From Dechloromonas denitrificans (GTDB lineage: Bacteria; Pseudomonadota; Gammaproteobacteria; Burkholderiales; Rhodocyclaceae), in contig NZ_LODL01000007.1 of NCBI RefSeq assembly GCF_001551835.1, positions 172,628-236,627 of the forward strand: 64,000 nucleotides of DNA. Reading direction: 5' to 3'. A program made the translations under genes and the position numbers. Shown in pieces: positions 36,184 through 48,245 of this stretch; position 1 is the stretch's first letter, and each line of letters opens with the position of its first letter. The notes below the pieces were generated by a model. That model did no database searches, was not told where the DNA came from, and was given only the letters and a program-made list of their open reading frames with translations.

Positions 36184-37401
36184 TTAAGGACGGCTTTCCG
36201 TCAACCATCTCCGGGCGCCCTGCCCGGCCGCCCGGCCGCTGGCCAGACAGGCGGTCAGAAGATAACCGCCGGTCGGCGCTTCCCAATCGAGCATCTCGCC
36301 GGCGCAGAAAATGCCGGGCATCCGGCGCAGCATCAACTGCTCGTCGAGTGCCTCGAAAACCACCCCGCCGGCCGTGCTGATCGCCTCGTCGAGCGGCCGC
36401 GTGGCCTGCACCGGCAGCGGCAGCGCCTTGATCGCGGCGGCCAGCGGGACTGCTGCGGTCAACTGCTCGGGCGGGCAAAATTCGCGCAGCAAGCCGGCCT
36501 TGACACCCTCGATGCCGGCCCGGCGGCGCAGATGGTTGCTTAGCGAATCGCGGCCGCGCGGATAGGACAGATCGGCGACCAGCCGGTCCAGCGAACGGCC
36601 GGGCGCCAGATCGAGGGTCAAAACTGCTTTGCCATCGCGTTCCAGCGCATCGCGCAACGGTGCCGACACGGCATAGACCAGGCCGCCCTCGATACCGTCG
36701 GCGGTGATATTGAATTCGCCCTGCTGCCGGGATTGGCCGATGCTGGCCACCACTGGCTTGACCGGCTGGCCAGCGAAGCGCTCGCGAAAATAAGCGCTCC
36801 ACGCCACGTCGAAACCGCAATTAGCCGGCCGTAACGGTGCGACCGGCACGCCACGTTCGCTGAGCAGCGGCACCCAGGCCCCATCCGAACCCAGCTTGCG
36901 CCAACTGCCGCCGCCCAACGCCAGAATCACCGCATCGGCGTGGACGCAGCTTTCGCCGTCCGGCGTCGCGAAGCGCAAGGCGCCAGCGGCCGTCCAGCCC
37001 AGCCAGCGATGGCGGACATGGAAATGCACGCCGCTGTCGCGCAGCCGGTGCAGCCAGGCGCGCAGCAAGGGGGCGGCTTTCATTTCGGTCGGAAAAACGC
37101 GGCCCGAAGTGCCGACGAAGGTATCGATGCCGAGGCCGTGGATCCAGCTACGCACAGCATCCGGCCCGAAAGCGTCGAGCAGCGGTGCGATCTGCGCCTG
37201 ACGCGTGCCGTAGCGACCGACGAAAGCCGGCAGCGGCTCGCTGTGCGTGATGTTCATGCCGCCCCGGCCGGCCATCAGGAACTTGCGGCCGAGCGACAGC
37301 ATGGCATCGAAAACCGCCACTTCGAGGCCGTCGACCGCGGCAATCTGCTCGGCCGCCATCAGCCCGGCCGGGCCACCGCCAATGATGGCGATACGGGGCA
37401 T
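36184..37401 (-). CDS. BaiN/YhiN-family flavoprotein (HI0933-like)
   Basis: 405-residue NAD(P)/FAD-dependent oxidoreductase of the HI0933 family. The FAD-binding start is IAIIGGGPAGLMAAEQIA, followed by KFLMAGRGGMNITHSEP and, near the C-terminus, GIFCAGEMLDWEAPTGGYLL. The shorter TIGR03862-like form fits. Reaction unknown for most members. It overlaps the stop of the transglutaminase-like gene by one base (TGATG) and so appears to be co-transcribed with the ATP-grasp/alpha-E genes, though it is not a standard part of that system. Confidence 0.85.
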   Translation of the reverse strand: MPRIAIIGGGPAGLMAAEQIAAVDGLEVAVFDAMLSLGRKFLMAGRGGMNITHSEPLPAFVGRYGTRQAQIAPLLDAFGPDAVRSWIHGLGIDTFVGTSGRVFPTEMKAAPLLRAWLHRLRDSGVHFHVRHRWLGWTAAGALRFATPDGESCVHADAVILALGGGSWRKLGSDGAWVPLLSERGVPVAPLRPANCGFDVAWSAYFRERFAGQPVKPVVASIGQSRQQGEFNITADGIEGGLVYAVSAPLRDALERDGKAVLTLDLAPGRSLDRLVADLSYPRGRDSLSNHLRRRAGIEGVKAGLLREFCPPEQLTAAVPLAAAIKALPLPVQATRPLDEAISTAGGVVFEALDEQLMLRRMPGIFCAGEMLDWEAPTGGYLLTACLASGRAAGQGARRWLTESRP

Positions 37402-38372
37402 CAGCGCTCCGGCCGCTCGGCGGCGGCAATGGCGCCGGAAAGGGCCGGCAGCAATTCCTCTTCGTCGAGCGGGGTGACGGTGACGGCGACCTCCGGCTCG
37501 GCGCCACCGCCGCCGAGAATGATGCCGCGCAAGGGCGAGATATCGCCGAAATCGCGGCCGAAAGCGACGGTGATGTGCTCGGTATCGGGCAACAGGTTGT
37601 TGGTCGGGTCGAAATCGACCCAGTCGTTGTCGAAGTCCGGGGCATAGACCGAAACCCAGGCATGCGATGCATCGGCCCCGATCAGGCGCGGCTTGCCCGG
37701 CGGCGGCCGGGTCAGCAGGTAGCCACTGACATAGCGGGCCGACAGACCGAGGGCACGCAGGCAGGCGATCATCAGGTGGGCGAAGTCCTGGCAGACGCCG
37801 CGCTTCTTTTCGAGCACTTCCATAACCGGCGTCGACACGGTGGTCGCCTCCGGATCGAACTTGAATTCCTTGAAAATCTTCGCCATCAGCGCCTCGGCGC
37901 CGAGCAGCACCGGTCGCCCGGGCGGGAAGCAGTCGGCCGCGTAATCGGCCAGTTCGTGCTTGATGCGGACATGGGCGCTTTCGAACAGGAAGCGCGTCGC
38001 ATCGAGGTCGGCCGGCCGCGAGTCGGAGGCATCGTAGGCCAGACGGTCGCGGACCTTTTCCCAGGGCAGCGAGCTTTCCAGCTTTTCCGGCAGGTGCGGC
38101 GTCACGGCGATGCTCATTGCCGAACTGATGCGCAGGCTGTCGTGCGGCGCATGGAAGGCGATCCAGGTCACCGGGTTGCCGAAAGCATCCTGGCCATCGC
38201 GCCGCCAGGTCGGTGACGGCGTGACGGCGATATGCTGCTCCTCGATCTGCTGCCAGGCGAGAATGCGCGGCGACAGGTGCAACTGCTGCTGCGATAGCGA
38301 AACAGGGCTGCCGTAGTCGTAGGTCGTTTCGTGCAGCACGTGGTAACGGACGGGCGTTTTTTCCATGATCAC
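37401..38372 (-). CDS. Transglutaminase-like cysteine protease of the ATP-grasp/alpha-E system
   Basis: 323-residue protein. N-terminal beta domain (VRYHVLHETTYDYGSPVSLS) of the bacterial transglutaminase N type, then the transglutaminase-like core with Cys in KKRGVCQDFAHLMI, His in DASHAWVSVYAP and Asp in WVDFDPTNN. Such enzymes cleave or transfer amide bonds. The frame opens at GTG 38372, which overlaps the upstream stop by four bases (GTGA); ATG 38366 is a possible alternative. It belongs to the COG1305 members that accompany alpha-E and permuted ATP-grasp genes. Confidence 0.85.
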   Translation of the reverse strand: MIMEKTPVRYHVLHETTYDYGSPVSLSQQQLHLSPRILAWQQIEEQHIAVTPSPTWRRDGQDAFGNPVTWIAFHAPHDSLRISSAMSIAVTPHLPEKLESSLPWEKVRDRLAYDASDSRPADLDATRFLFESAHVRIKHELADYAADCFPPGRPVLLGAEALMAKIFKEFKFDPEATTVSTPVMEVLEKKRGVCQDFAHLMIACLRALGLSARYVSGYLLTRPPPGKPRLIGADASHAWVSVYAPDFDNDWVDFDPTNNLLPDTEHITVAFGRDFGDISPLRGIILGGGGAEPEVAVTVTPLDEEELLPALSGAIAAAERPER

Positions 38373-40888
38373 AGGGCCATCGTCTGCCGGCTGACATCGC
38401 CGACGTGCGTGAAATAGCGCATACCGAGCCAGTCGGAGAGCTGCACGGCGGCGCTATCGAGTTCGCGGAGCAGTGCCGCCAGGTCGTCGCAGACCGGGCA
38501 ATTCCGCTCCGGGCTGAACTGCGTCTGCTCGAAACGTTCCAGGTCGAAGCCCTGCAGGCGATGCAGGACTTCCGGCAAATTGCTCGCACTGTGCTCATCC
38601 AGCTCGCGCGCCATGCGGTCGAGATAGCGGGCCAGCACACTGGCCTGGAAGATCAGGCCGTGCGGGTTGCTGTCGTCGAAGACCAGCAGGTCGAGTACCG
38701 GCAACAGTTCCGGCAGGCGCGAATAGCGCGAGCGATAGGTGATGATCGAATCGGTCAGTTCGAGCAGCCATTCGAGACTGCCCGGGCCGCGCGTGGACGG
38801 CATCTTCAGGAAATTGGCGATGGTATTGGCGAGGAAGGACAAGCGCTCCAGCCGGCGGCCGATGATCAGGAAACGCCAGCCATCGTCGCGCGTCATGTTG
38901 TCCATCGCAAAGCCGGTCAAGGAAGAGGAAACACCGAGCACGCGGTCGAGGAAGGCAATCGCCTCGGTCAGCGTCGGATGTATCTTCAGCGCCGCCTGCT
39001 GCTCGCGCTGCAGGCGGTTCAGCGAATGCCAGTGGTCGAGCGACAGCCGTTCGCGGACATGCGTCGCCGACCACATCAGATTGCGGATATTGCCGGCCAG
39101 GCTGCCCGGCTGGTTCGGATCGTAGATCGCTTCGAGCAACACGTGCTCGCTGCCCTCCTTGACCTCGTTATCCTCTTCCGGGGTCGGCAAAATGCCGAGA
39201 ATCGTCGCCATTTCCATCGCCGAAGCGACCGCCGGCGTCTTGCCGCCGCTCGCCTCGACGACGCGGCTCAGCGCCACCCGCAGCATGCGGGCGCTGTCGT
39301 CGAAACGTTCCGAGTAGCGGCCGAGCCAGAACAGGTTTTCAACGACCCGCGAAGTCAGATTGGCGCCGGCCCGGACCAGGTCGCGAACCCCGACCGAGGG
39401 CTTGAGCATGGTGAATTCGCTGACCGGACCATCGGTCAACACCCAGGCATCCTTCGAGGCGCCACCGCGCTGCATCGAAATGATGCGGGCGTTGGCGCCG
39501 GTCGCGACACGGGCCAGGCCGCCCGGCATCACCGAGTAGCCATCCGGCGAGGCGACGGCATAGGCGCGCAGGCCGACCGGCCGAGCCAGCAGGCGGCGCT
39601 CGTGCGAGCGGCTCCAGGTCGGCCCCTGCGACAGATTGACCATCTCCTGGGCGACATAGGCGTGCGGCCGCGCCTCGATCCGGTGCAGCATCTCGGCCCG
39701 CGCCTCGCCTTTCAGCTCGTAACCGAACACCGGGTCCATGCGCTGCGTCGGGTAGGCCGGCTTGATGACCAGATCGTCGAAGTTTTCGCGAACGTAGTCG
39801 AGCGCCGGCTTTTCGCCGCACCACCAGGTACCGACCGAGGGCATCGCCAGTTCCTCGCCGAGCAGCTTGCGACAGATCGCCGGCAGGAAGCCCATCAGCG
39901 CCCCGGAGGCGAGCAGGCCGCTGCCCAGCGCATTGGCGATGACGACGCGGCCGGCCCGCGCCACATTGAGCAGACCGGGAATGCCGAGCGCCGACTCGCC
40001 GCGCAGTTCGAGCGGGTCGCAATAGCCGTCATCCTGCCGGCGCAGCACGACATGCACCCGCTTCAGGCCGCGCAGGGTTTTCAGGAACAGCGTATCGCCG
40101 CGCACCGTCAGGTCTTGCCCCTCGACCAGCGGGAAACCGAGGTAACGCGCCAGATAGGCATGTTCGAAATAGGTTTCGTTGTACGGCCCGGGGGTCAGCA
40201 GCACGATATGCGGCTGTTCGTCGCCGTCGACCGGGGCCAGCGCGTTGAGGCCGTCCTGCTGGTCGCGGAAGAAGTCGGCCAGATGCTGGACGTGCAGATC
40301 GCGGAACATTTCCGGGAAGACGCGCGAAACGATCAGCCGGTTTTCCAGCGCGTAGCCGGCCCCGGAAGGCGCCTGCGTGCGGTCGGCGATGACCCACCAA
40401 CGCCCATCCGGCGAACGGGCCAGATCAACGGCGTACTGGTGCAGCCAGGTGCCGCCGGCCGGCTTGATGCCATGGCAAGGCCACAGGTAACCGTGCTGGC
40501 CGAAGACCAGGGCCGGTGGCAGCAAGCCTTCGGCGAGCAGGGTCTGCTCGCCGTAGAGGTCGGCCAGGATGGCGTTGAGCAGCGTCGCACGCTGGGCGAC
40601 GGCAGCCGAGACCTCGGCCCACTCCTCGGGCGGAATGATCAGCGGCAGCGGATCGAGCGCCCACGGCCGATCCGAACCGCTGGGATCGGCGTAGACGTTG
40701 TAGGTCACCCCGTTTTCCTGAATCCGCCGATCGACGAAATCGAGGCGGCGATGCATTTCTTCAGGCGCGATCGAATCGAGATGGATGAAAAACTGCCGCC
40801 AGTGCGGGCGCACGGCGCCATCGGCAGTCAGCATTTCATCGTAGCGACGCGCGCTATGGGGGTAAATTGCGAGGAGTGTGCGGGCCAT
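38369..40888 (-). CDS. Circularly permuted ATP-grasp fused to an alpha-E domain
   Basis: 839-residue fusion. Residues about 1-480 are the permuted ATP-grasp (MLTADGAVRPHW, QPHIVLLTPGPYNETYFEHA, LVEGQDLTVRGD, RVVIANALGSGLLAS), a predicted amide- or peptide-bond-forming ligase. Residues about 510-835 are the alpha-helical alpha-E domain (RVVENLFWLGRYSERFDDSARMLR). The same two domains occur as separate proteins at 45737-48100. Starts 80 bases after the large transglutaminase gene and overlaps the next by four bases. Substrate unknown. Confidence 0.88.
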   Translation of the reverse strand: MARTLLAIYPHSARRYDEMLTADGAVRPHWRQFFIHLDSIAPEEMHRRLDFVDRRIQENGVTYNVYADPSGSDRPWALDPLPLIIPPEEWAEVSAAVAQRATLLNAILADLYGEQTLLAEGLLPPALVFGQHGYLWPCHGIKPAGGTWLHQYAVDLARSPDGRWWVIADRTQAPSGAGYALENRLIVSRVFPEMFRDLHVQHLADFFRDQQDGLNALAPVDGDEQPHIVLLTPGPYNETYFEHAYLARYLGFPLVEGQDLTVRGDTLFLKTLRGLKRVHVVLRRQDDGYCDPLELRGESALGIPGLLNVARAGRVVIANALGSGLLASGALMGFLPAICRKLLGEELAMPSVGTWWCGEKPALDYVRENFDDLVIKPAYPTQRMDPVFGYELKGEARAEMLHRIEARPHAYVAQEMVNLSQGPTWSRSHERRLLARPVGLRAYAVASPDGYSVMPGGLARVATGANARIISMQRGGASKDAWVLTDGPVSEFTMLKPSVGVRDLVRAGANLTSRVVENLFWLGRYSERFDDSARMLRVALSRVVEASGGKTPAVASAMEMATILGILPTPEEDNEVKEGSEHVLLEAIYDPNQPGSLAGNIRNLMWSATHVRERLSLDHWHSLNRLQREQQAALKIHPTLTEAIAFLDRVLGVSSSLTGFAMDNMTRDDGWRFLIIGRRLERLSFLANTIANFLKMPSTRGPGSLEWLLELTDSIITYRSRYSRLPELLPVLDLLVFDDSNPHGLIFQASVLARYLDRMARELDEHSASNLPEVLHRLQGFDLERFEQTQFSPERNCPVCDDLAALLRELDSAAVQLSDWLGMRYFTHVGDVSRQTMAL

Positions 40889-40968: not shown

Positions 40969-43900
40969 TTAGAAACGCCGCAAGTCTAGCGTAAACGGGT
41001 GTTCCGCGCTGATTTGCGCTGCCTGGACCTGCATCTTGCCCGGCGTATGGCCGAAGCGGAAGAAGCGGGCCAGACGACGGCTTTCGGCCTCGAAGGCATT
41101 GACCGGGAAGGTGTCGAAACTGCGCCCGCCCGGGTGCGCGACGTGGTACTGGCAACCGCCCAGCGAACGCTGCATCCAGGTATCGACCAGGTCGAAGACC
41201 AGCGGTGCATGGACGCCGATCGTCGGATGCAGACAGGAAGCCGGCTGCCAGGCGCGATAGCGGACGCCGGCGACGAACTCGCCGTTGGTGCCGGTGTTCT
41301 GCAGCGGCACCGGCACGCCATTGCAGGTCAGCACGTAGCGATCCGGCGCCATGCCCTTGACCTTGACCTGGACGCGCTCGACCGAGGAGTCGACATAGCG
41401 CACCGTGGTCCCGGCCCCGCCCTCCTCGCCCATGACGTGCCAGGGTTCGAGGGCGTGACGCAGTTCGAACTCGATGCCTTTGACGGCGAAATCGCCATAT
41501 TTCGGGAAGCGGAATTCGAAGTGCGGCGCGAACCATTCGGCCTTGAAGGCGAAACCGGCTGCCGTCATTTCGTCCATGACGTCCTTGAAATCCTGCTCGG
41601 CGTAGAAAGGCAGCATGAAGCGGTCGTGCAGCTCGGTGCCCCAGCGCGCCAGGCGGGCCGGCTCGTAGGGCTCTTCCCAGAAACGGGCTATCAGGGCCCG
41701 GAGCAGTAACTGCTGGGCGAGCGACATCCGGGCATGCGGCGGCATTTCGAAGGCGCGCAGTTCGAGCAGGCCGAGGCGGCCGGTCGGGCCGTCCGGCGAA
41801 TAGAGCTTGTCGATGCAGAACTCGGAACGGTGCGTGTTGCCGGTGACATCGGTGAGCAGATTGCGCAGGATGCGGTCGACCAGCCAGGGCGGCACATTTC
41901 CGCCCGGCGGCGGAATCTGCTTGAAGGCGATTTCCAGCTCGTACAGCGAATCGTTGCGCGCTTCATCGACGCGCGGTGCCTGGCTGGTCGGGCCGATGAA
42001 CAGGCCGGAGAACAGGTAGGACAGGCTCGGGTGATTGTGCCAGTAGGCGATCAGGCTCTTCAACAGGTCCGGCCGACGCAGGAAGGGCGAATCGTTCGGC
42101 GTTGCACCGCCAAGGACGAAGTGGTTGCCGCCGCCGGTGCCGGTGTGACGGCCGTCGACCATGAATTTCTCGGAGGTCAGGCGGGTCAGGTGGGCCGCAT
42201 CGTAAAGATGGGTGGTCTGCTCGACCAGCTGATCCCAGCTTTTGGCCGGGTGGATATTGACTTCGATCACACCAGGGTCGGGCGTCACGCGGAAATGTGT
42301 CAGGCGCGGATCGGATGGCGGCTCGTAGCCTTCCATGATCACCGGCAGGTTCATTTCCTCGGCGGTCGACTCGACGGCAGCAACGATTTCCAGGTAATCG
42401 TCGAGCTTCTCGGTCGGCGGCATGAAGATGTAGAGCTTGCCGTCGCGCGGCTCGGCGCACATCGCGAGACGCGTGATCCAGGCGGCGGATTCCTTGAAGC
42501 CGGGACGGGTGTCGCTCGGCTTTTCCCAGGCGCGGCCCTTGCCATGAACTTCGGCAAAGCCGGCAGCGGAACTGCTACGCCGGTCCTGCATCTGCGGCCC
42601 GCGCGCAGCACGCGCCGCATTGACGCGCTCGCGCAGCTCGGCGTGCGTCGCCAGCGGATCGGTCGCCATTTCGGCATCCGGCACATTGACGTAGGGATAG
42701 TCGCTCTGCGCCGTCCACGGCTGCGAGTCGATCGGCAGGCGATAACCCATGGCCGAATCGCCGGGGAACAGGTAGCAGCGCTCGGCACGCAGGAACCACG
42801 GCCCGGTCTGCCACTGGTCGGCCAGGTTCTTCATGATCGGCAGCGTGTAGCCGATGGTGTGCGTCAAGCCCTGGGTAAACACCTTCATCAGGCGTTCGCG
42901 CTCCAGTGCGTCGTCGACACGCGAATCGAAGGGATCGACGTTGCCCGGCAGGCGGCGCTCGCGCCACATGTAGTAATAGACGTCTTCGAAGGCCGGGAAG
43001 ACGTGCTCACCGGTGACGCCGAGGCGCTCGGCGACGCGGCGCAGAAAATGGCCGGCCTGCTCGGCGGTGGCGCCGTAATCAAGGCTTTCATTGGCGTACA
43101 GCGCCGGCGAATTCCAGATCGGTTCGCCATCCTTGCGCCAGAAGCAGTTCAGCGACCAGCGCGGGAGTTGCTCGCCGGGATACCACTTGCCCTGGCCGAA
43201 ATGCATCAGACCGTTTGCGGCATATTTCTCGCGCAAGCGATGAAAGAGATCGGCGGCAAACAGTCGTTTTGTCGGGCCGAGGGCGGCAGTATTCCATTCC
43301 GCCCCATCCGGATCGTCGACCGCAACGAAGGTCGGCTCGCCGCCCTGGGTCAGGAGGACATCGAGTTTCTGCAAGGTGCCGTCGATCTGGTGGCCGAGGT
43401 TTTCGATTTCCAGCCACTGCGCGTCGGTATAGGGCTTGGTGACGCGCGGCGCTTCCCAGATCCGCGAAACGCCCATGTGATGGCTGAATTCGGTTTCGCA
43501 TTCGTCGATGCCGCCGCTGATCGGCGCGGCCGACGAGGGTTCAGGCGTGCAGGCCAGCGGGATGTGGCCTTCGCCGGCAAAGAGGCCGGAGGTCGGATCG
43601 AGACCGATCCAGCCGGCGCCCGGCAGATAGACTTCGGTCCAGGCGTGCAGGTCGGTGAAATCCTTTTCCGGGCCGGACGGGCCATCGAGCGATTTGACGT
43701 CGGCGGTCAACTGGATCAGATAGCCGGAAACGAACCGCGCCGCCAGGCCAAGATGGCGCAGCACCTGCACCAGCAGCCAGGCGGAGTCGCGGCAGGAGCC
43801 GGAGCGCTTGGTCAGCGTTTCTTCCGGTGTCTGGACGCCCGGTTCCATGCGGATGGTGTAGCCGATGTCGCGCTGCACCTGGGCATTGATCGCGACCAGG

Positions 43901-44331
43901 AAATCGACGCTGCGCACCGGTTCGCGGGAAATACTGGCGACATACACATCGAATACCGGACCGTAATTCACCTTGTAGAGATAAGGCGCCAGTTCGTGGC
44001 GCTCGCCGGCCTCGTAGGCGAAAGGAATCTTCTCGGCATGCGGCTCGAGGAAGAAGTCGAACGGGTTGATGACCGACATCTCGGCCACCAGGTCGACCTC
44101 GACGCGGAATTCGCGGGTTTTTTCCGGGAAGACCAGACGGGCCAGGTAATTGCCTTGCGGGTCCTGCTGCCAGTTGATGAAATGCTTTTCCGGCCCGACC
44201 TTGAGCGAATAGGACAGGATGCGCGTCCGCGAATGCGGGCAGGGACGCAGACGAATGAGCTGCGGCCCGAGATTGATCAGGCGGTCATAGCTGTAATGCG
44301 TAACATGGTTCAGGGCAACATGGATGGACAC
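40969..44331 (-). CDS. Large transglutaminase-like protein with DUF2126 domain
   Basis: 1120-residue protein. The N-terminal 300 residues are a transglutaminase-like domain (VTHYSYDRLINLGPQLIRLR, Cys in RSGSCRDSAWLLVQVL, His in TDLHAWTEVYLPGAGW, Asp in GLDPTSGLF). The rest matches DUF2126, including LLTQGGEPTFVAVDD, HFGQGKWYPGEQLPRW and DGRHTGTGGGNHFVLGG, a region related to glutamine-synthetase/amidoligase folds in published domain analyses. First gene of its transcription unit, 25 bases downstream of the start site predicted from a sigma-54-like promoter. Confidence 0.88.
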   Translation of the reverse strand: MSIHVALNHVTHYSYDRLINLGPQLIRLRPCPHSRTRILSYSLKVGPEKHFINWQQDPQGNYLARLVFPEKTREFRVEVDLVAEMSVINPFDFFLEPHAEKIPFAYEAGERHELAPYLYKVNYGPVFDVYVASISREPVRSVDFLVAINAQVQRDIGYTIRMEPGVQTPEETLTKRSGSCRDSAWLLVQVLRHLGLAARFVSGYLIQLTADVKSLDGPSGPEKDFTDLHAWTEVYLPGAGWIGLDPTSGLFAGEGHIPLACTPEPSSAAPISGGIDECETEFSHHMGVSRIWEAPRVTKPYTDAQWLEIENLGHQIDGTLQKLDVLLTQGGEPTFVAVDDPDGAEWNTAALGPTKRLFAADLFHRLREKYAANGLMHFGQGKWYPGEQLPRWSLNCFWRKDGEPIWNSPALYANESLDYGATAEQAGHFLRRVAERLGVTGEHVFPAFEDVYYYMWRERRLPGNVDPFDSRVDDALERERLMKVFTQGLTHTIGYTLPIMKNLADQWQTGPWFLRAERCYLFPGDSAMGYRLPIDSQPWTAQSDYPYVNVPDAEMATDPLATHAELRERVNAARAARGPQMQDRRSSSAAGFAEVHGKGRAWEKPSDTRPGFKESAAWITRLAMCAEPRDGKLYIFMPPTEKLDDYLEIVAAVESTAEEMNLPVIMEGYEPPSDPRLTHFRVTPDPGVIEVNIHPAKSWDQLVEQTTHLYDAAHLTRLTSEKFMVDGRHTGTGGGNHFVLGGATPNDSPFLRRPDLLKSLIAYWHNHPSLSYLFSGLFIGPTSQAPRVDEARNDSLYELEIAFKQIPPPGGNVPPWLVDRILRNLLTDVTGNTHRSEFCIDKLYSPDGPTGRLGLLELRAFEMPPHARMSLAQQLLLRALIARFWEEPYEPARLARWGTELHDRFMLPFYAEQDFKDVMDEMTAAGFAFKAEWFAPHFEFRFPKYGDFAVKGIEFELRHALEPWHVMGEEGGAGTTVRYVDSSVERVQVKVKGMAPDRYVLTCNGVPVPLQNTGTNGEFVAGVRYRAWQPASCLHPTIGVHAPLVFDLVDTWMQRSLGGCQYHVAHPGGRSFDTFPVNAFEAESRRLARFFRFGHTPGKMQVQAAQISAEHPFTLDLRRF

Positions 44332-44366
44332 GGGTCGGCTCCGGACAAATGGACTGCAAGGATCAA

Positions 44367-44382
44367 AGCAAGACGCGAACCA
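44367..44382 (-). promoter_or_regulatory. Sigma-54-like promoter of the transglutaminase/ATP-grasp operon
   Basis: On the minus strand TGGTTCGCGTCTTGCT keeps the GG (-24) and GC (-12) exactly ten bases apart and has TTGCT at -12. The -24 box is TGGTTC instead of TGGCAC. Transcription would start near 44356, 25 bases before the gene. Confidence 0.55.
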
Positions 44383-44392
44383 GCCCGAAAAA

Positions 44393-44406
44393 GCACCATT
44401 TGGTGC
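44393..44406. promoter_or_regulatory. NtrC-like site I upstream of the operon
   Basis: GCACCA-TT-TGGTGC is a perfect palindrome close to the NtrC consensus (GCACC-N5-GGTGC), though the spacer is one base short. It sits about 44 bases upstream of the predicted start. Confidence 0.45.
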
Positions 44407-44464
44407 GGATGCGGGCGATTACACTGACATGACGCACCAGTAAATCGCCCGCCCCGGAAAGGCT

Positions 44465-44481
44465 TGCACCAGAACGGTGCC
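44465..44481. promoter_or_regulatory. NtrC-like site II upstream of the operon
   Basis: TGCACCAGAACGGTGCC has GCACC and GGTGC separated by exactly five bases, as in known NtrC sites. It is centred about 116 bases upstream of the predicted start, the usual enhancer distance. Confidence 0.55.
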
Positions 44482-44491
44482 CAGCCGGAAA

Positions 44492-45622
44492 CTAATCGTT
44501 CAGACTGGCCAGCGCCGTCGCCAAATGCTCGACTGTCCGTTCGCGGTTGTGCAATTTATCCAGCCCGAACAGGCCGATCCGGAAGCTACGGAAATCGGCC
44601 GGCTCATCGCATTGCAGCGGCACACCAGCCGCCGTTTGCAGACCGAGGCCAATGAATTTCTTGCTCGAGTGGATTTCCGGGTCTTCGGTGTAACTGACCA
44701 CCACGCCCGGCGCCTCGAAACCCACCGCCGCTACGCTGGGATAGCCCCGGCTGGCGAGCAACGCCCGCACCTGATCGCCCAAGGCCTGCTGTTCGTCCCG
44801 AATTTTCGAGAAGCCATAGGCTTCCATTTCCAGCATCGTGTCGCGCAAGCGGGCCAAGGCGTCGGTAGGCATCGTGGCATGGTAGGCGTGACCGCCATTT
44901 TCATAGGCCTGCATGATCTGCAGCCATTTGCGCAGGTCGCAGGCAAAGCTGCTGCTGGTCGTTGTCTCGATACGCGCCAGCGCCCGCTCGCCGAGCATGA
45001 CCAGGGCGCCGCACGGTGAAGCGCTCCAGCCCTTCTGGGGGGCGCTGATCAGGACATCGACGCCGGCTGCCTGCATATCCACCCAAATCGCCCCCGAGGC
45101 GATGCAATCGAGCACGAACAGGCCGTCGACCGCCCGTACCGCCTCGCCAACGGCGCGCAGATAGCTTTCGGGCAGGATCATGCCGGAAGCCGTCTCGACA
45201 TGGGGGGCGAAAACCACCGCCGGCTTCTCGCGCAAAATGGTCGCCACCACCTCGTCGACCTGCGGCGGCGCGAAGGGCGCCTGCTTGCCATCGCCCAGGC
45301 GGCGCGCCTTGAGGACGATGCATTCGGCAGGAATCCGCCCCATTTCGAAAATCTGCGTCCAGCGGAAGCTGAACCAGCCGTTGCGGATCACCAGGCATTT
45401 GCGGTCGGTGGCGAACTGACGCGCCACCGCCTCCATGCCGAAAGTGCCGCTACCCGGCACGATGATCGCCGCCTCGGCGTGATAAACCTGTTTCAGGATG
45501 CGTGAAATGTCGCGCATCACGCCCTGAAAGGACTGCGACATGTGATTCAGGGCGCGGTCGGTGTACACCACCGAATATTCAAGCAGACCTTCGGGATCGA
45601 CAGCAGGCAACAGACGGGACAT
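44492..45622 (-). CDS. Class V PLP-dependent aminotransferase (alanine-glyoxylate/serine-pyruvate type)
   Basis: 376-residue PLP enzyme. The Schiff-base lysine is in ISAPQKGWSASPCG and the cofactor Asp in FVLDCIASGAIWVDM; IVPGSGTFGMEAVARQ is the glycine-rich phosphate loop of the alanine-glyoxylate aminotransferase group. GGAG precedes ATG 45622. It lies between the two ATP-grasp/alpha-E gene sets on the same strand, 114 bases after the alpha-E gene, so it could make or recycle an amino donor for that system. The substrate cannot be told from sequence. Confidence 0.83.
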   Translation of the reverse strand: MSRLLPAVDPEGLLEYSVVYTDRALNHMSQSFQGVMRDISRILKQVYHAEAAIIVPGSGTFGMEAVARQFATDRKCLVIRNGWFSFRWTQIFEMGRIPAECIVLKARRLGDGKQAPFAPPQVDEVVATILREKPAVVFAPHVETASGMILPESYLRAVGEAVRAVDGLFVLDCIASGAIWVDMQAAGVDVLISAPQKGWSASPCGALVMLGERALARIETTTSSSFACDLRKWLQIMQAYENGGHAYHATMPTDALARLRDTMLEMEAYGFSKIRDEQQALGDQVRALLASRGYPSVAAVGFEAPGVVVSYTEDPEIHSSKKFIGLGLQTAAGVPLQCDEPADFRSFRIGLFGLDKLHNRERTVEHLATALASLND

Positions 45623-45736
45623 GGGCGGCTCCGGAAAAGGTTGAGGCGTTGCGAACCCGTGCAGCATACCGCCAAGCCCAGGACGATCCAACCCTTACCG
45701 GCACCACCCGGCCACGCCGGGCGGCCGGGGGAAAAC

Positions 45737-46684
45737 TCAGGCCGCTTCGGCCAGCGGCACCAGAAAATCCTTGCTGATGCCGTCGCCGAGAATGTAGATG
45801 CGATCCATGAAATCGGTCAGCCATTCGTGCAGGCCTTGCGCCAGGATATCCTCGACCCGGGCGTAATGCAGCTGGGCATGCAGCAGCCCGGCCTGGCGTT
45901 GGGTTTCACCGGAATGGCGGTTGGCGATCAGATCGAGATTCTTGACCACACCATTCATGCAGAAATGCAGCGAACGCGGCATGTCGTTGCGCAGGATCAG
46001 CAACTCGGCGACCCGCTCCGGCGTGATGACGTCGCGATAGGCCTTGCGATACACCTCGAAGGCCGAGACCGAACGGAGCAAGGCCCCCCACTGGTAGAAG
46101 TCGGTCGCCCCTTCATCGCCATGCGGACGCAGCACGTGGTATTTGACGTCGAGAATGCGCGCCGTGTTGTCGGCCCGTTCGAGCAAGGTACCGAGCCGGA
46201 TGAAGTGATAGGACTCATCCTGCAGCAGCGTACCGAGCGTCGTGCCGCGCGACAGCGAGGAGCGCATCTTGACCCACTCGAAGAACTCGCCGATACCGGC
46301 ATTCAGGATCTGCTCGAAGCTCTTGTCCCGCGCTTCCAGCCAGGTGAAGTTCAGCGTCTCCCACATTTCCGTGGTGATCGTGCCACGCACGGCGTGGGCA
46401 TTTTCACGGGCCAGGCGCAGGCAGCTATAGATCGAGGAATAGTTGTCGGCATCACTGACCATGAAACGCAGCACATTTTCGGCGTTGACCGCAGGATACT
46501 TGGCGGCAAACGCTTCATCTAGGCTGTTCAGGGTAATGATGGCATGCCAGTTCTGGTTGGCCGCATCTTCCGACTGCGGCACCATCGACATCTGCCAGGT
46601 CACATCGAGCAGGCGGGCAAGGTTTTCAGCCCGCTCGATATAGCGGGACATCCAGAACAGGTGGTCGGCTGTACGCGAAAGCAT
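45737..46684 (-). CDS. Stand-alone alpha-E domain protein
   Basis: 315-residue helical protein of the COG2307 alpha-E family: MLSRTADHLFWMSRYIERAENLARLLD at the start and LLQDESYHFIRLGTLLERADNTAR in the middle, both rich in conserved Arg and Glu. Starts three bases after the permuted ATP-grasp gene, so the two are one unit. Function is unproven; it travels with ATP-grasp and transglutaminase-like genes. Confidence 0.88.
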   Translation of the reverse strand: MLSRTADHLFWMSRYIERAENLARLLDVTWQMSMVPQSEDAANQNWHAIITLNSLDEAFAAKYPAVNAENVLRFMVSDADNYSSIYSCLRLARENAHAVRGTITTEMWETLNFTWLEARDKSFEQILNAGIGEFFEWVKMRSSLSRGTTLGTLLQDESYHFIRLGTLLERADNTARILDVKYHVLRPHGDEGATDFYQWGALLRSVSAFEVYRKAYRDVITPERVAELLILRNDMPRSLHFCMNGVVKNLDLIANRHSGETQRQAGLLHAQLHYARVEDILAQGLHEWLTDFMDRIYILGDGISKDFLVPLAEAA

Positions 46685-46687
46685 CTC

Positions 46688-48100
46688 TTAATCCTCCAGA
46701 ACCCAAGTATCTTTGGTACCGCCGCCCTGCGACGAATTGACGACCAGCGAGCCTTTGGTCAAGGCCACCCGAGTCAGGCCCCCCGGTACCATATTGACGC
46801 AATCGCCCGACGACAGGACGAAGGGCCGCAGGTCGAGGTGGCGCGGCGCGATGCCCTCTTCGACGAAGGTTGGGCAATTCGACAGCGCCAGCGTCGGCTG
46901 GGCGATATAGCCATCCGGCTTGGCGAGCAGCAACTGGCGGAAATGCTCGATCTGCTCCTTGGTCGCCGCCGGCCCGACCAGCATGCCGTAGCCACCGGCA
47001 CCATGCACCTCCTTGACGACCAGTTCCGGCAAATGGGCCAGCACATAGTCGAGGTCATCCTTCTTGCGACACATGTAGGTCGGCACATTGTTCAGTTTCG
47101 GCTCTTCGCCCAGGTAGAAACGGATCATCTCAGGTACGTAGGGGTAGATCGACTTGTCGTCGGCGACGCCGGTGCCGATGGCATTGGCCAGCGTCACATT
47201 GCCCGCCTGGTAGGCTTTCAGGATGCCCGGCACGCCGAGCGCCGAATCCGGACGGAAAGCCTGCGGATCGAGAAAATCGTCGTCGATCCGGCGATAGATC
47301 ACATCCACCCGCTGCGACCCCTGCGTCGTCTGCATGTAAACGACTTCATTCTTGACGAAGAGATCGCGGCCTTCGACCAGTTCCACGCCCATCTGCTGGG
47401 CCAGGAAGGTATGTTCGAAATAGGCGCTGTTGTAGGCCCCCGGCGTCAGGACGACCACAGTCGGATTGCTGACCCCCTTCGGCGCCACGGCGCGCAACTT
47501 TTCCAGCAACAGGTCCGGGTAATGCTGAACCGGCGCCACCTTGTGCTTGGCGAACAACTCGGGGAACAGCCGCATCATCATCTTGCGGTCTTCCAGCATG
47601 TAGGAAACGCCGGACGGAACCCGCAGATTGTCCTCCAGGACATAGAACTCGCCCTCCCCGGCCCGCACCACGTCGACCCCGGCAATATGCGCATAGATCC
47701 CGCCCGGCACATCGACACCTTTCATCACAGGACGGTACTGGGCGTTATTGAGTACCTGCTCGGCCGGAATTATTCCCGCCTTGAGAATTTCCTGATCGTG
47801 ATAGATGTCGTGCAGGAACATGTTCAGCGCCTTGACGCGCTGGCGCAGGCCCGATTGCAACGCCTTCCACTCAGCCGAGGGAATGATGCGCGGAACGATA
47901 TCGAACGGGATCAAGCGCTCCTTGCCCGCCTCTTCGCCATAGACCGCAAAGGTGATACCCACCCGGTGAAAGGCCAGATCCGCCTCCGCCCGCTTGCGCG
48001 CAATGCGCTCGGGAGGCGTCGATTTTAGCCAGTCATCGTAACGCTGGTAGTGAGCGCGGACGCCGCCGTTGGCGTCCATCATTTCGTTATAGAAGTTCAT
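46688..48100 (-). CDS. Stand-alone circularly permuted ATP-grasp protein (type 2)
   Basis: 470-residue predicted ligase of COG2308. Family features: MNFYNEMMDANGGVRAHYQ at the start, VVVLTPGAYNSAYFEHTFLA, ELVEGRDLFVKNEV, GNVTLANAIGTGVADDKS and VVKEVHGAGGYGMLVGP. In-frame ATGs at 48151 and 48169 exist, but a sigma-54-like promoter at 48140-48155 would lie over them, and the added segment has a rare AGA codon, so ATG 48100 is preferred. Likely forms a peptide or amide bond using ATP; substrate unknown. Confidence 0.88.
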   Translation of the reverse strand: MNFYNEMMDANGGVRAHYQRYDDWLKSTPPERIARKRAEADLAFHRVGITFAVYGEEAGKERLIPFDIVPRIIPSAEWKALQSGLRQRVKALNMFLHDIYHDQEILKAGIIPAEQVLNNAQYRPVMKGVDVPGGIYAHIAGVDVVRAGEGEFYVLEDNLRVPSGVSYMLEDRKMMMRLFPELFAKHKVAPVQHYPDLLLEKLRAVAPKGVSNPTVVVLTPGAYNSAYFEHTFLAQQMGVELVEGRDLFVKNEVVYMQTTQGSQRVDVIYRRIDDDFLDPQAFRPDSALGVPGILKAYQAGNVTLANAIGTGVADDKSIYPYVPEMIRFYLGEEPKLNNVPTYMCRKKDDLDYVLAHLPELVVKEVHGAGGYGMLVGPAATKEQIEHFRQLLLAKPDGYIAQPTLALSNCPTFVEEGIAPRHLDLRPFVLSSGDCVNMVPGGLTRVALTKGSLVVNSSQGGGTKDTWVLED

Positions 48101-48139
48101 AGTGGACTCGTCGCTGAGGGATGCTCTCACCTGGATTTC

Positions 48140-48155
48140 AGCAGTTTCCATGCCA
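48140..48155 (-). promoter_or_regulatory. Sigma-54-like promoter of the ATP-grasp/alpha-E unit
   Basis: On the minus strand TGGCATGGAAACTGCT matches the -24/-12 consensus well: TGGCA at -24, GC at -12, with GG and GC ten bases apart. Start would be near 48130, 30 bases before ATG 48100. Confidence 0.65.
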
Positions 48156-48191
48156 CCGGCAAAACACATGATAAATCAGTGGATTGAAACC

Positions 48192-48245
48192 TTGCACCAA
48201 ACAAGGTCGCACCATATCAGTGCAGAATCGGTCAATGTGGTGCAA
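48192..48245. promoter_or_regulatory. Cluster of NtrC-like sites
   Basis: CGCACCATATCAGTGCA (48208-48224) fits GCACC-N5-GGTGC with one mismatch. It is flanked by TTGCACCA (48192-48199) and TGGTGCAA (48238-48245), an outer perfect inverted repeat of half-sites. The cluster spans about -62 to -115 of the predicted sigma-54 start, as expected for an enhancer. Confidence 0.55.

Follow-up and report, generated by a model that had tools for sequence, protein, structure and literature searches.

The Anbu operon, as described in PMC5666114 and PMC6376114, encodes ATP-grasp, alpha-E, transglutaminase, and Anbu proteins, and both papers cite Hervas 2008 for the induction of Anbu in nitrogen-limited Pseudomonas putida. 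Phosphate release from ATP is reported for the ATP-grasp protein of Yersinia (PMC6376114). In Burkholderia cenocepacia H111, the I35_5080-83 genes encode DUF404/407, DUF403, and two transglutaminase-like proteins. When nitrogen was limiting, an ntrC mutant was reported to have them down 6.0- to 9.4-fold, and they are given as common targets of NtrC and sigma-54, for which the sigma-54 consensus GGcacg-N4-ttGC is printed (PMC5491218). In P. putida wild type, PP_2686-2688 were up 11.0- to 14.7-fold in nitrogen limitation, with NtrB/NtrC named as the putative regulator (PMC7801951). Going by what these sources report, membership of the genes in the nitrogen-limitation response is therefore already published for the family and is not new. 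Here we describe two gene sets of these families, set 1 and set 2, in a stretch of 64,000 nucleotides (nt) from Dechloromonas denitrificans (contig NZ_LODL01000007.1; hereafter the window, whose positions are used throughout). Both sets lie on the minus strand, and their promoter regions suggest that in this organism they are very probably controlled by NtrC and sigma-54.

Literature searches on these genes in Dechloromonas (sigma 54, NtrC, nitrogen starvation, domain names, Anbu) returned none among the matches listed. The azo3470-3474 cluster of Azoarcus BH72 (PMC3916325) is a possible additional case of nitrogen induction, its gene content being unconfirmed. The transglutaminase homologue treated in the Caulobacter NtrC paper PMC10274813 is a different one, hvyA.

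An earlier note, made from the letters of the window, had pointed to a GG-N10-GC element and to GCACC-N5-GGTGC-type sites in front of both sets. For the present analysis, sigma-54 elements had to contain GG and GC, were scored from 0 to 12 against TGGYAYRNNNNTTGCW, and were counted from 11/12 upward. NtrC palindromes were scored from 0 to 10 on the half-sites of GCACY-N5-RGTGC, and the genome of 4,238,526 bases was searched with the pattern GCACYNNNNNRGTGC. Apart from the printed GGcacg-N4-ttGC, the scoring strings are what we take to be the general consensus for sigma-54 and NtrC. Both elements and both palindromes were found as claimed (Table 1), and the two elements are the only ones of at least 11/12 on either strand of the window. 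Each is preceded by an NtrC palindrome, whose centre lies at about -87 (set 1) or -117 (set 2) from the inferred transcription start; the gap between palindrome and element is 83 nt in set 2. A further palindrome near set 2, GCACCAAATGGTGC (44406-44393), did not hold up as an NtrC site, having a 4-base spacer and a terminator-like form and not being seen in aligned relatives. The NtrC palindromes themselves were also considered as terminators. The set 1 palindrome was flagged in a terminator scan, but its T run is poor and it is often imperfect in relatives; in this region the strong hairpin lies instead at 48281-48250, behind a thiolase gene.

Table 1. Promoter features and genes of sets 1 and 2 (window positions)
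Feature	Position	Strand	Score or evidence
Set 1 sigma-54 -24/-12 element, TGGCATGGAAACTGCT (TGGCATG-N4-CTGCT)	48155-48140	-	11/12
Set 1 NtrC palindrome, GCACTGATATGGTGC	48223-48209	-	9/10; one of 31 in genome
Conserved half-site upstream of set 1 palindrome, TTGCACCA	48238..48245	-	alignment of 29 loci
Set 2 sigma-54 -24/-12 element, TGGTTCGCGTCTTGCT (TGGTTCG-N4-TTGCT)	44382-44367	-	11/12
Set 2 NtrC palindrome, perfect, GCACCGTTCTGGTGC	44480-44466	-	10/10; one of 31 in genome
Set 2 second, half NtrC site, GCGATTTACTGGTGC	44434..44448	-	32 bp from first site; GTGC conserved, 28 loci
Set 1 gene 1, circularly permuted ATP-grasp protein	46688..48100	-	PF14403, 564.5 bits (open reading frame from 48169); PDB 3n6x
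Set 1 gene 2, alpha-E protein	45737..46684	-	PF04168, 332.9 bits
Set 2 gene 1, transglutaminase domain and DUF2126 putative amidoligase	40969..44331	-	PF09899, 1351.1 bits; PF01841
Set 2 gene 2, ATP-grasp fused to alpha-E	38369..40888	-	PF14403, PF04168
Set 2 gene 3, transglutaminase-like protein	37401..38372	-	PF01841, PF08379

Further genomic analysis placed both promoters among recognizable NtrC targets. The pattern GCACYNNNNNRGTGC was found 31 times in the genome and the reversed pattern 4 times. The surroundings of 29 palindromes were fetched (one of these also lies within the window), the remaining two being those of sets 1 and 2. An element of at least 11 stood within 160 base pairs (bp) of five of the 29, which makes seven of 31 when sets 1 and 2 are counted. 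The seven elements of at least 11 found in 148 kb of own-genome DNA all lie beside an NtrC palindrome, this DNA being the window plus 27 stretches picked for holding a palindrome, of which only the window part is unselected. Three further NtrC sites of 9 or 10/10 in the window have no accompanying sigma-54 element of at least 11. A combined pattern of palindrome and element with a gap of 40-70 nt matched only set 1 in the whole genome.

The five other promoters include that of the glutamine synthetase gene glnA (L064; TIGR00653 615.9 bits, cut-off 429.15), and an ammonium transporter (PF00909) and an NMT1-type substrate-binding protein are also encoded behind a palindrome and an element. Because this arrangement is shared with glnA and the ammonium transporter, sets 1 and 2 are found in the company of classical NtrC targets. 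Both have the same palindrome and the same -24/-12 geometry as the glnA promoter, and with the right spacing their shapes do fit sigma-54 and NtrC sites, as had been claimed. The genome encodes NtrC (681.8 bits vs. a cut-off of 558.6) and a single copy of RpoN. Palindrome and sigma-54 element were also found at a weakly Cache-like gene (38.9 bits, cut-off 45) and an MCP signalling-domain gene (loci L041 and L062), and from these promoters a nitrogen-controlled taxis is possible.

In the proposed mechanism, both gene sets would be nitrogen-regulated operons. Under nitrogen limitation, phosphorylated NtrC would bind the GCACC-N5-GGTGC sites at the distances given above and, through DNA looping, contact the sigma-54 RNA polymerase at the -24/-12 element, turning transcription on. 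Transcription starts would be expected near 48129 for set 1 and near 44356 for set 2. The sites, the regulator genes, and the conservation within the genus are observed; NtrC binding and induction in this organism are predicted from them.

The conservation of the sites upstream of orthologues was surveyed in 60 genomes, the window's own included, of which 36 belong to the Dechloromonas/Azonexus genus. Set 1 is present in 29 of the 36, as are both sets together; set 2 alone is found in two and neither set in five, three of which are 96-99% complete. The set 1 element is kept in all 29 loci, at -51 to -55 from the ATG, and is accompanied in all of them by a palindrome of at least 8/10 (at least 9 in 23), usually at -119 to -123. 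For set 2, an element of the TGGTTCG type (TGGTGCG in one case) was found in 29/30 loci, at -49 to -53 from the GTG. A palindrome of at least 8/10 is present in 27/30, and one of the three loci without it (L158) has a short upstream sequence. Twenty-four of the set 2 palindromes lie at -137 to -140, and three, including that of the window, lie roughly a helical turn farther out, at -149 to -151. The alignments comprise 29 set 1 and 28 set 2 loci, the latter without L176 and without L158, whose upstream sequence ends at 130 nt. In both, the flanks vary, and the columns of the -24 box, the -12 box, and the half-sites are clearly set off from them.

The set 1 alignment also bears on the start of the ATP-grasp gene. 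The longest open reading frame begins at 48169 and so encloses the set 1 element. However, 16 of the 29 same-genus loci have an in-frame stop no more than 39 nt upstream of the ATG, and therefore the true start is probably the ATG at 48100; the start codon at 48169 was set aside on these stops. The leader between the promoter and this ATG (48101-48128) is unusually conserved, with the form GAGAGC.T.CCTCAG.GA.GAGT across 29 loci. Between the two sets lies an aminotransferase-V gene (44492-45622) with a weak likeness to 2-aminoethylphosphonate aminotransferases (84.6 bits vs. a cut-off of 360.8), and the window scan found no sigma-54 element of at least 11 in front of it.

The published B. cenocepacia cluster could be compared in strain CMCC(B)23006, where gene order alone identified the counterparts of I35_5080-83. 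Both strands of a 10-kb stretch together hold just one element of 11, AGGCACGTTCCTTGCA, with a perfect palindrome 79 bp upstream. It stands directly before the ATP-grasp gene, which itself contains a second site of 9. The cluster resembles the window in its protein families and in the palindrome and element before the ATP-grasp gene. In contrast to the two sets and two promoters of the window, where set 1 has no transglutaminase, it forms one run with a transglutaminase between the sets. This run goes on into the DUF2126 and fusion genes, so that both sets stand behind one promoter. Since B. cenocepacia has both sets behind one promoter, and the genus keeps or loses both nearly together, sets 1 and 2 are probably one functional unit.

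On a wider scale, the set 1 promoter was followed in named relatives, taken as the best 80 of at least 591. The best named matches of the ATP-grasp gene among these at least 591 relatives were Dechloromonas sp. H13 (94%) and an Azonexus metagenome-assembled genome (92%). The 80 loci overlap with the genus genomes (L078 is seemingly the same genome as G034), and the two conservation counts are not independent. The -24 box is TGGCA in 78, TGGCG in one, and GGGCA in one; the -12 box is GC in 39, GA in 36, and GT in 5. An NtrC site of at least 8 lies 53-110 nt upstream in 37 of the 39 GC-type loci. Among records from a plasmid collection, an element of at least 11 was found within 320 bp in four of six, namely two Caballeronia (one at -245), Klebsiella, and Aeromonas. 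A class-wide sample consisted of 60 upstream regions (52 from the class and 8 from the order), each with a control segment, of which 260 bp were searched for elements. Set 1 elements of at least 11 were present in 21/60 regions vs. 0/60 controls, and element and NtrC site occurred together in 11/60.

Several results weigh against control by NtrC and sigma-54, or against its generality. Within the genus, the set 1 NtrC site scores just 8/10 in 6/29 loci, and one locus (L173) has the set 2 element but no palindrome. Compared with the genome's own glnA promoter, set 2 has a non-consensus -24 box (TGGTTC). In the class-wide sample, 39/60 regions have no element of at least 11, and NtrC sites of at least 8 were found in 26/60 vs. 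15/60 controls. This excess comes from the order (7/8 vs. 1/8 controls); in the 52 more distant regions the counts were 19 vs. 14 controls, and 2 vs. 3 for sites of at least 9. A GC element and a palindrome are both missing from one order-level locus (L039), and the other two plasmid-collection records, a second B. cenocepacia ATP-grasp copy and a Sinorhizobium meliloti copy, have no element. Because the element is enriched class-wide and NtrC sites are not, the link to sigma-54 appears to be old, if patchy; a link to NtrC is seen here in the nearer relatives only.

This imbalance speaks for a rival reading, in which the promoters are true sigma-54 promoters served by another enhancer-binding protein, in response to a signal other than nitrogen limitation. 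The genome has 18 strong sigma-54 activators (PF00158), and 17 of them are not NtrC, so that only the shape of the sites and precedent single out NtrC. Nevertheless, the palindromes are the same as those at glnA and the ammonium transporter, and the B. cenocepacia genes were reported to depend on NtrC (PMC5491218). NifA-type sites (TGT-N10-ACA) were found in 0/29 set 1 and 2/30 set 2 upstream regions of the genus; NifA control was set aside, as neither window region contains one. Another activator is therefore improbable, and NtrC remains the favoured regulator.

For set 2, the evidence outside the genus is thinner. Its promoter could be judged in 12 of the 80 named loci, where an element of 11 was present in three (L078, seemingly the same genome as G034, among them) and one of 10 in four. 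An element of at least 10 is lacking in five, two of which have set 2 directly behind set 1, and an NtrC site of at least 9 was found in 2/12. With so few elements of 11 and NtrC sites of 9, the set 2 promoter is poorly supported outside the genus. This raises the question of whether only the set 1 promoter works, with set 2 read through from it and the set 2 element a relic. Such an arrangement exists, as in L176 set 2 follows about 20 nt behind the alpha-E gene with no element of its own, and L077 and L081 are joined likewise. These loci thus lack a set 2 promoter in a position where that of set 1 can serve both, and in B. cenocepacia, too, both sets follow one promoter. In the window, however, the two are separated by the aminotransferase gene, and in G010 about 19 kb lie between them. 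Moreover, the genus keeps the set 2 element and palindrome in nearly all loci, and read-through with a relic element is very unlikely. In three other loci (L108, L145, L146), sets 1 and 2 point away from each other and share the roughly 160-290 bp between them, and their set 2 elements have the GGTAYGAATC form with a score of 10.

The main published result on the other side concerns P. putida, where PP_2686-2688 were reported to be up 14.2- to 19.6-fold in the rpoN mutant too (PMC7801951). It speaks against sigma-54 dependence there, and is odd for classical NtrC targets. Table 2 of the same source lists urtABCD, with the same assigned regulator, as likewise induced about equally in rpoN mutant and wild type. 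Since urtABCD behave like PP_2686-2688 in these data, either the rpoN mutant or the NtrB/NtrC assignment needs a second look. That the motifs are chance matches in front of ordinary sigma-70 promoters could draw on this result, on the short and degenerate motifs, and on the chance-like N4-spaced palindrome near set 2, but it is extremely improbable given that no further element of such quality occurs in 64 kb, that the two are kept in 29/29 and 29/30 loci, and that a simple scan found no sigma-70-type match in either upstream region.

A variant promoter was found in many Oxalobacteraceae and some neighbours, which account for the GA type noted above (e.g., L104, L113, L119). These loci keep TGGCACG, and their -12 box is TTGAT. 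In 23 of the 36, an NtrC-like site of at least 8 lies 22-23 or 33-35 nt upstream; it lies at 54 nt in one, and 12 have none. L039 is of the TTGAT form too. The variant is not a general trait of the sigma-54 promoters of these genomes, because the glnA element is GC-type in 12/12 genomes tested, 11 of which have GA or GT at set 1.

The order of the set 1 genes, ATP-grasp and then alpha-E, is that of the Anbu operon. Unlike that operon, set 1 ends at alpha-E, and no Anbu was found in the genome. The query, an Azospira Anbu protein that itself matches PDB 5loy and 5nyj, gave no match in the window's genome at an E-value of 0.001, and the sole PF00227 match there is HslV. Among the 29 genus genomes that have set 1, Anbu was found in seven (split over two frames in one) and not found in 22, the window's own included; 16 of the 22, again including the own genome, are rated at least 90% complete. 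Outside the genus, Anbu is present in 12/13. Both sets and their promoters persist in the genus where Anbu is missing. The split Anbu belongs to G024 (L173; C1:1443762-1444483), which also has a stop within its DUF2126 gene and no set 2 palindrome; these defects are either decay or sequencing errors.

With no Anbu found in the genome, the function of the two sets in this organism cannot depend on it. That the enzymes are kept together behind the same promoter type where Anbu is missing is an argument for enzymatic amide chemistry, and not proteolysis by Anbu, as the conserved function. DUF2126 is labelled a putative amidoligase by Pfam. Our own inference, which we hold to be doubtful, is that the two ATP-grasp/alpha-E modules, the DUF2126 putative amidoligase, and the two transglutaminase-fold proteins might make and rearrange amide bonds in nitrogen salvage. 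For the family as a whole, we consider it an evenly balanced proposition that the nitrogen-stress function resides in the ATP-grasp/alpha-E and transglutaminase/DUF2126 proteins and not in Anbu, together with a rebuilding of the set 1 promoter to TTGAT in many Oxalobacteraceae, where control may work in another way.

The earlier note had taken nitrogen limitation as a clue to the role of these proteins. The regulation itself is supported, although as a new clue it is weaker than claimed, being already in print for the family. The predicted nitrogen control of both sets is a further case of the published regulation, and the absence of Anbu where promoters and sets are kept is the less expected part. 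The analysis links nitrogen limitation to a poorly understood enzyme system in one more group of bacteria and indicates to experimenters when its genes should be on. Natural systems in which no Anbu was found, with two separable operons, would moreover allow the ligase and transglutaminase parts to be studied apart from the protease, the main subject of structural work.

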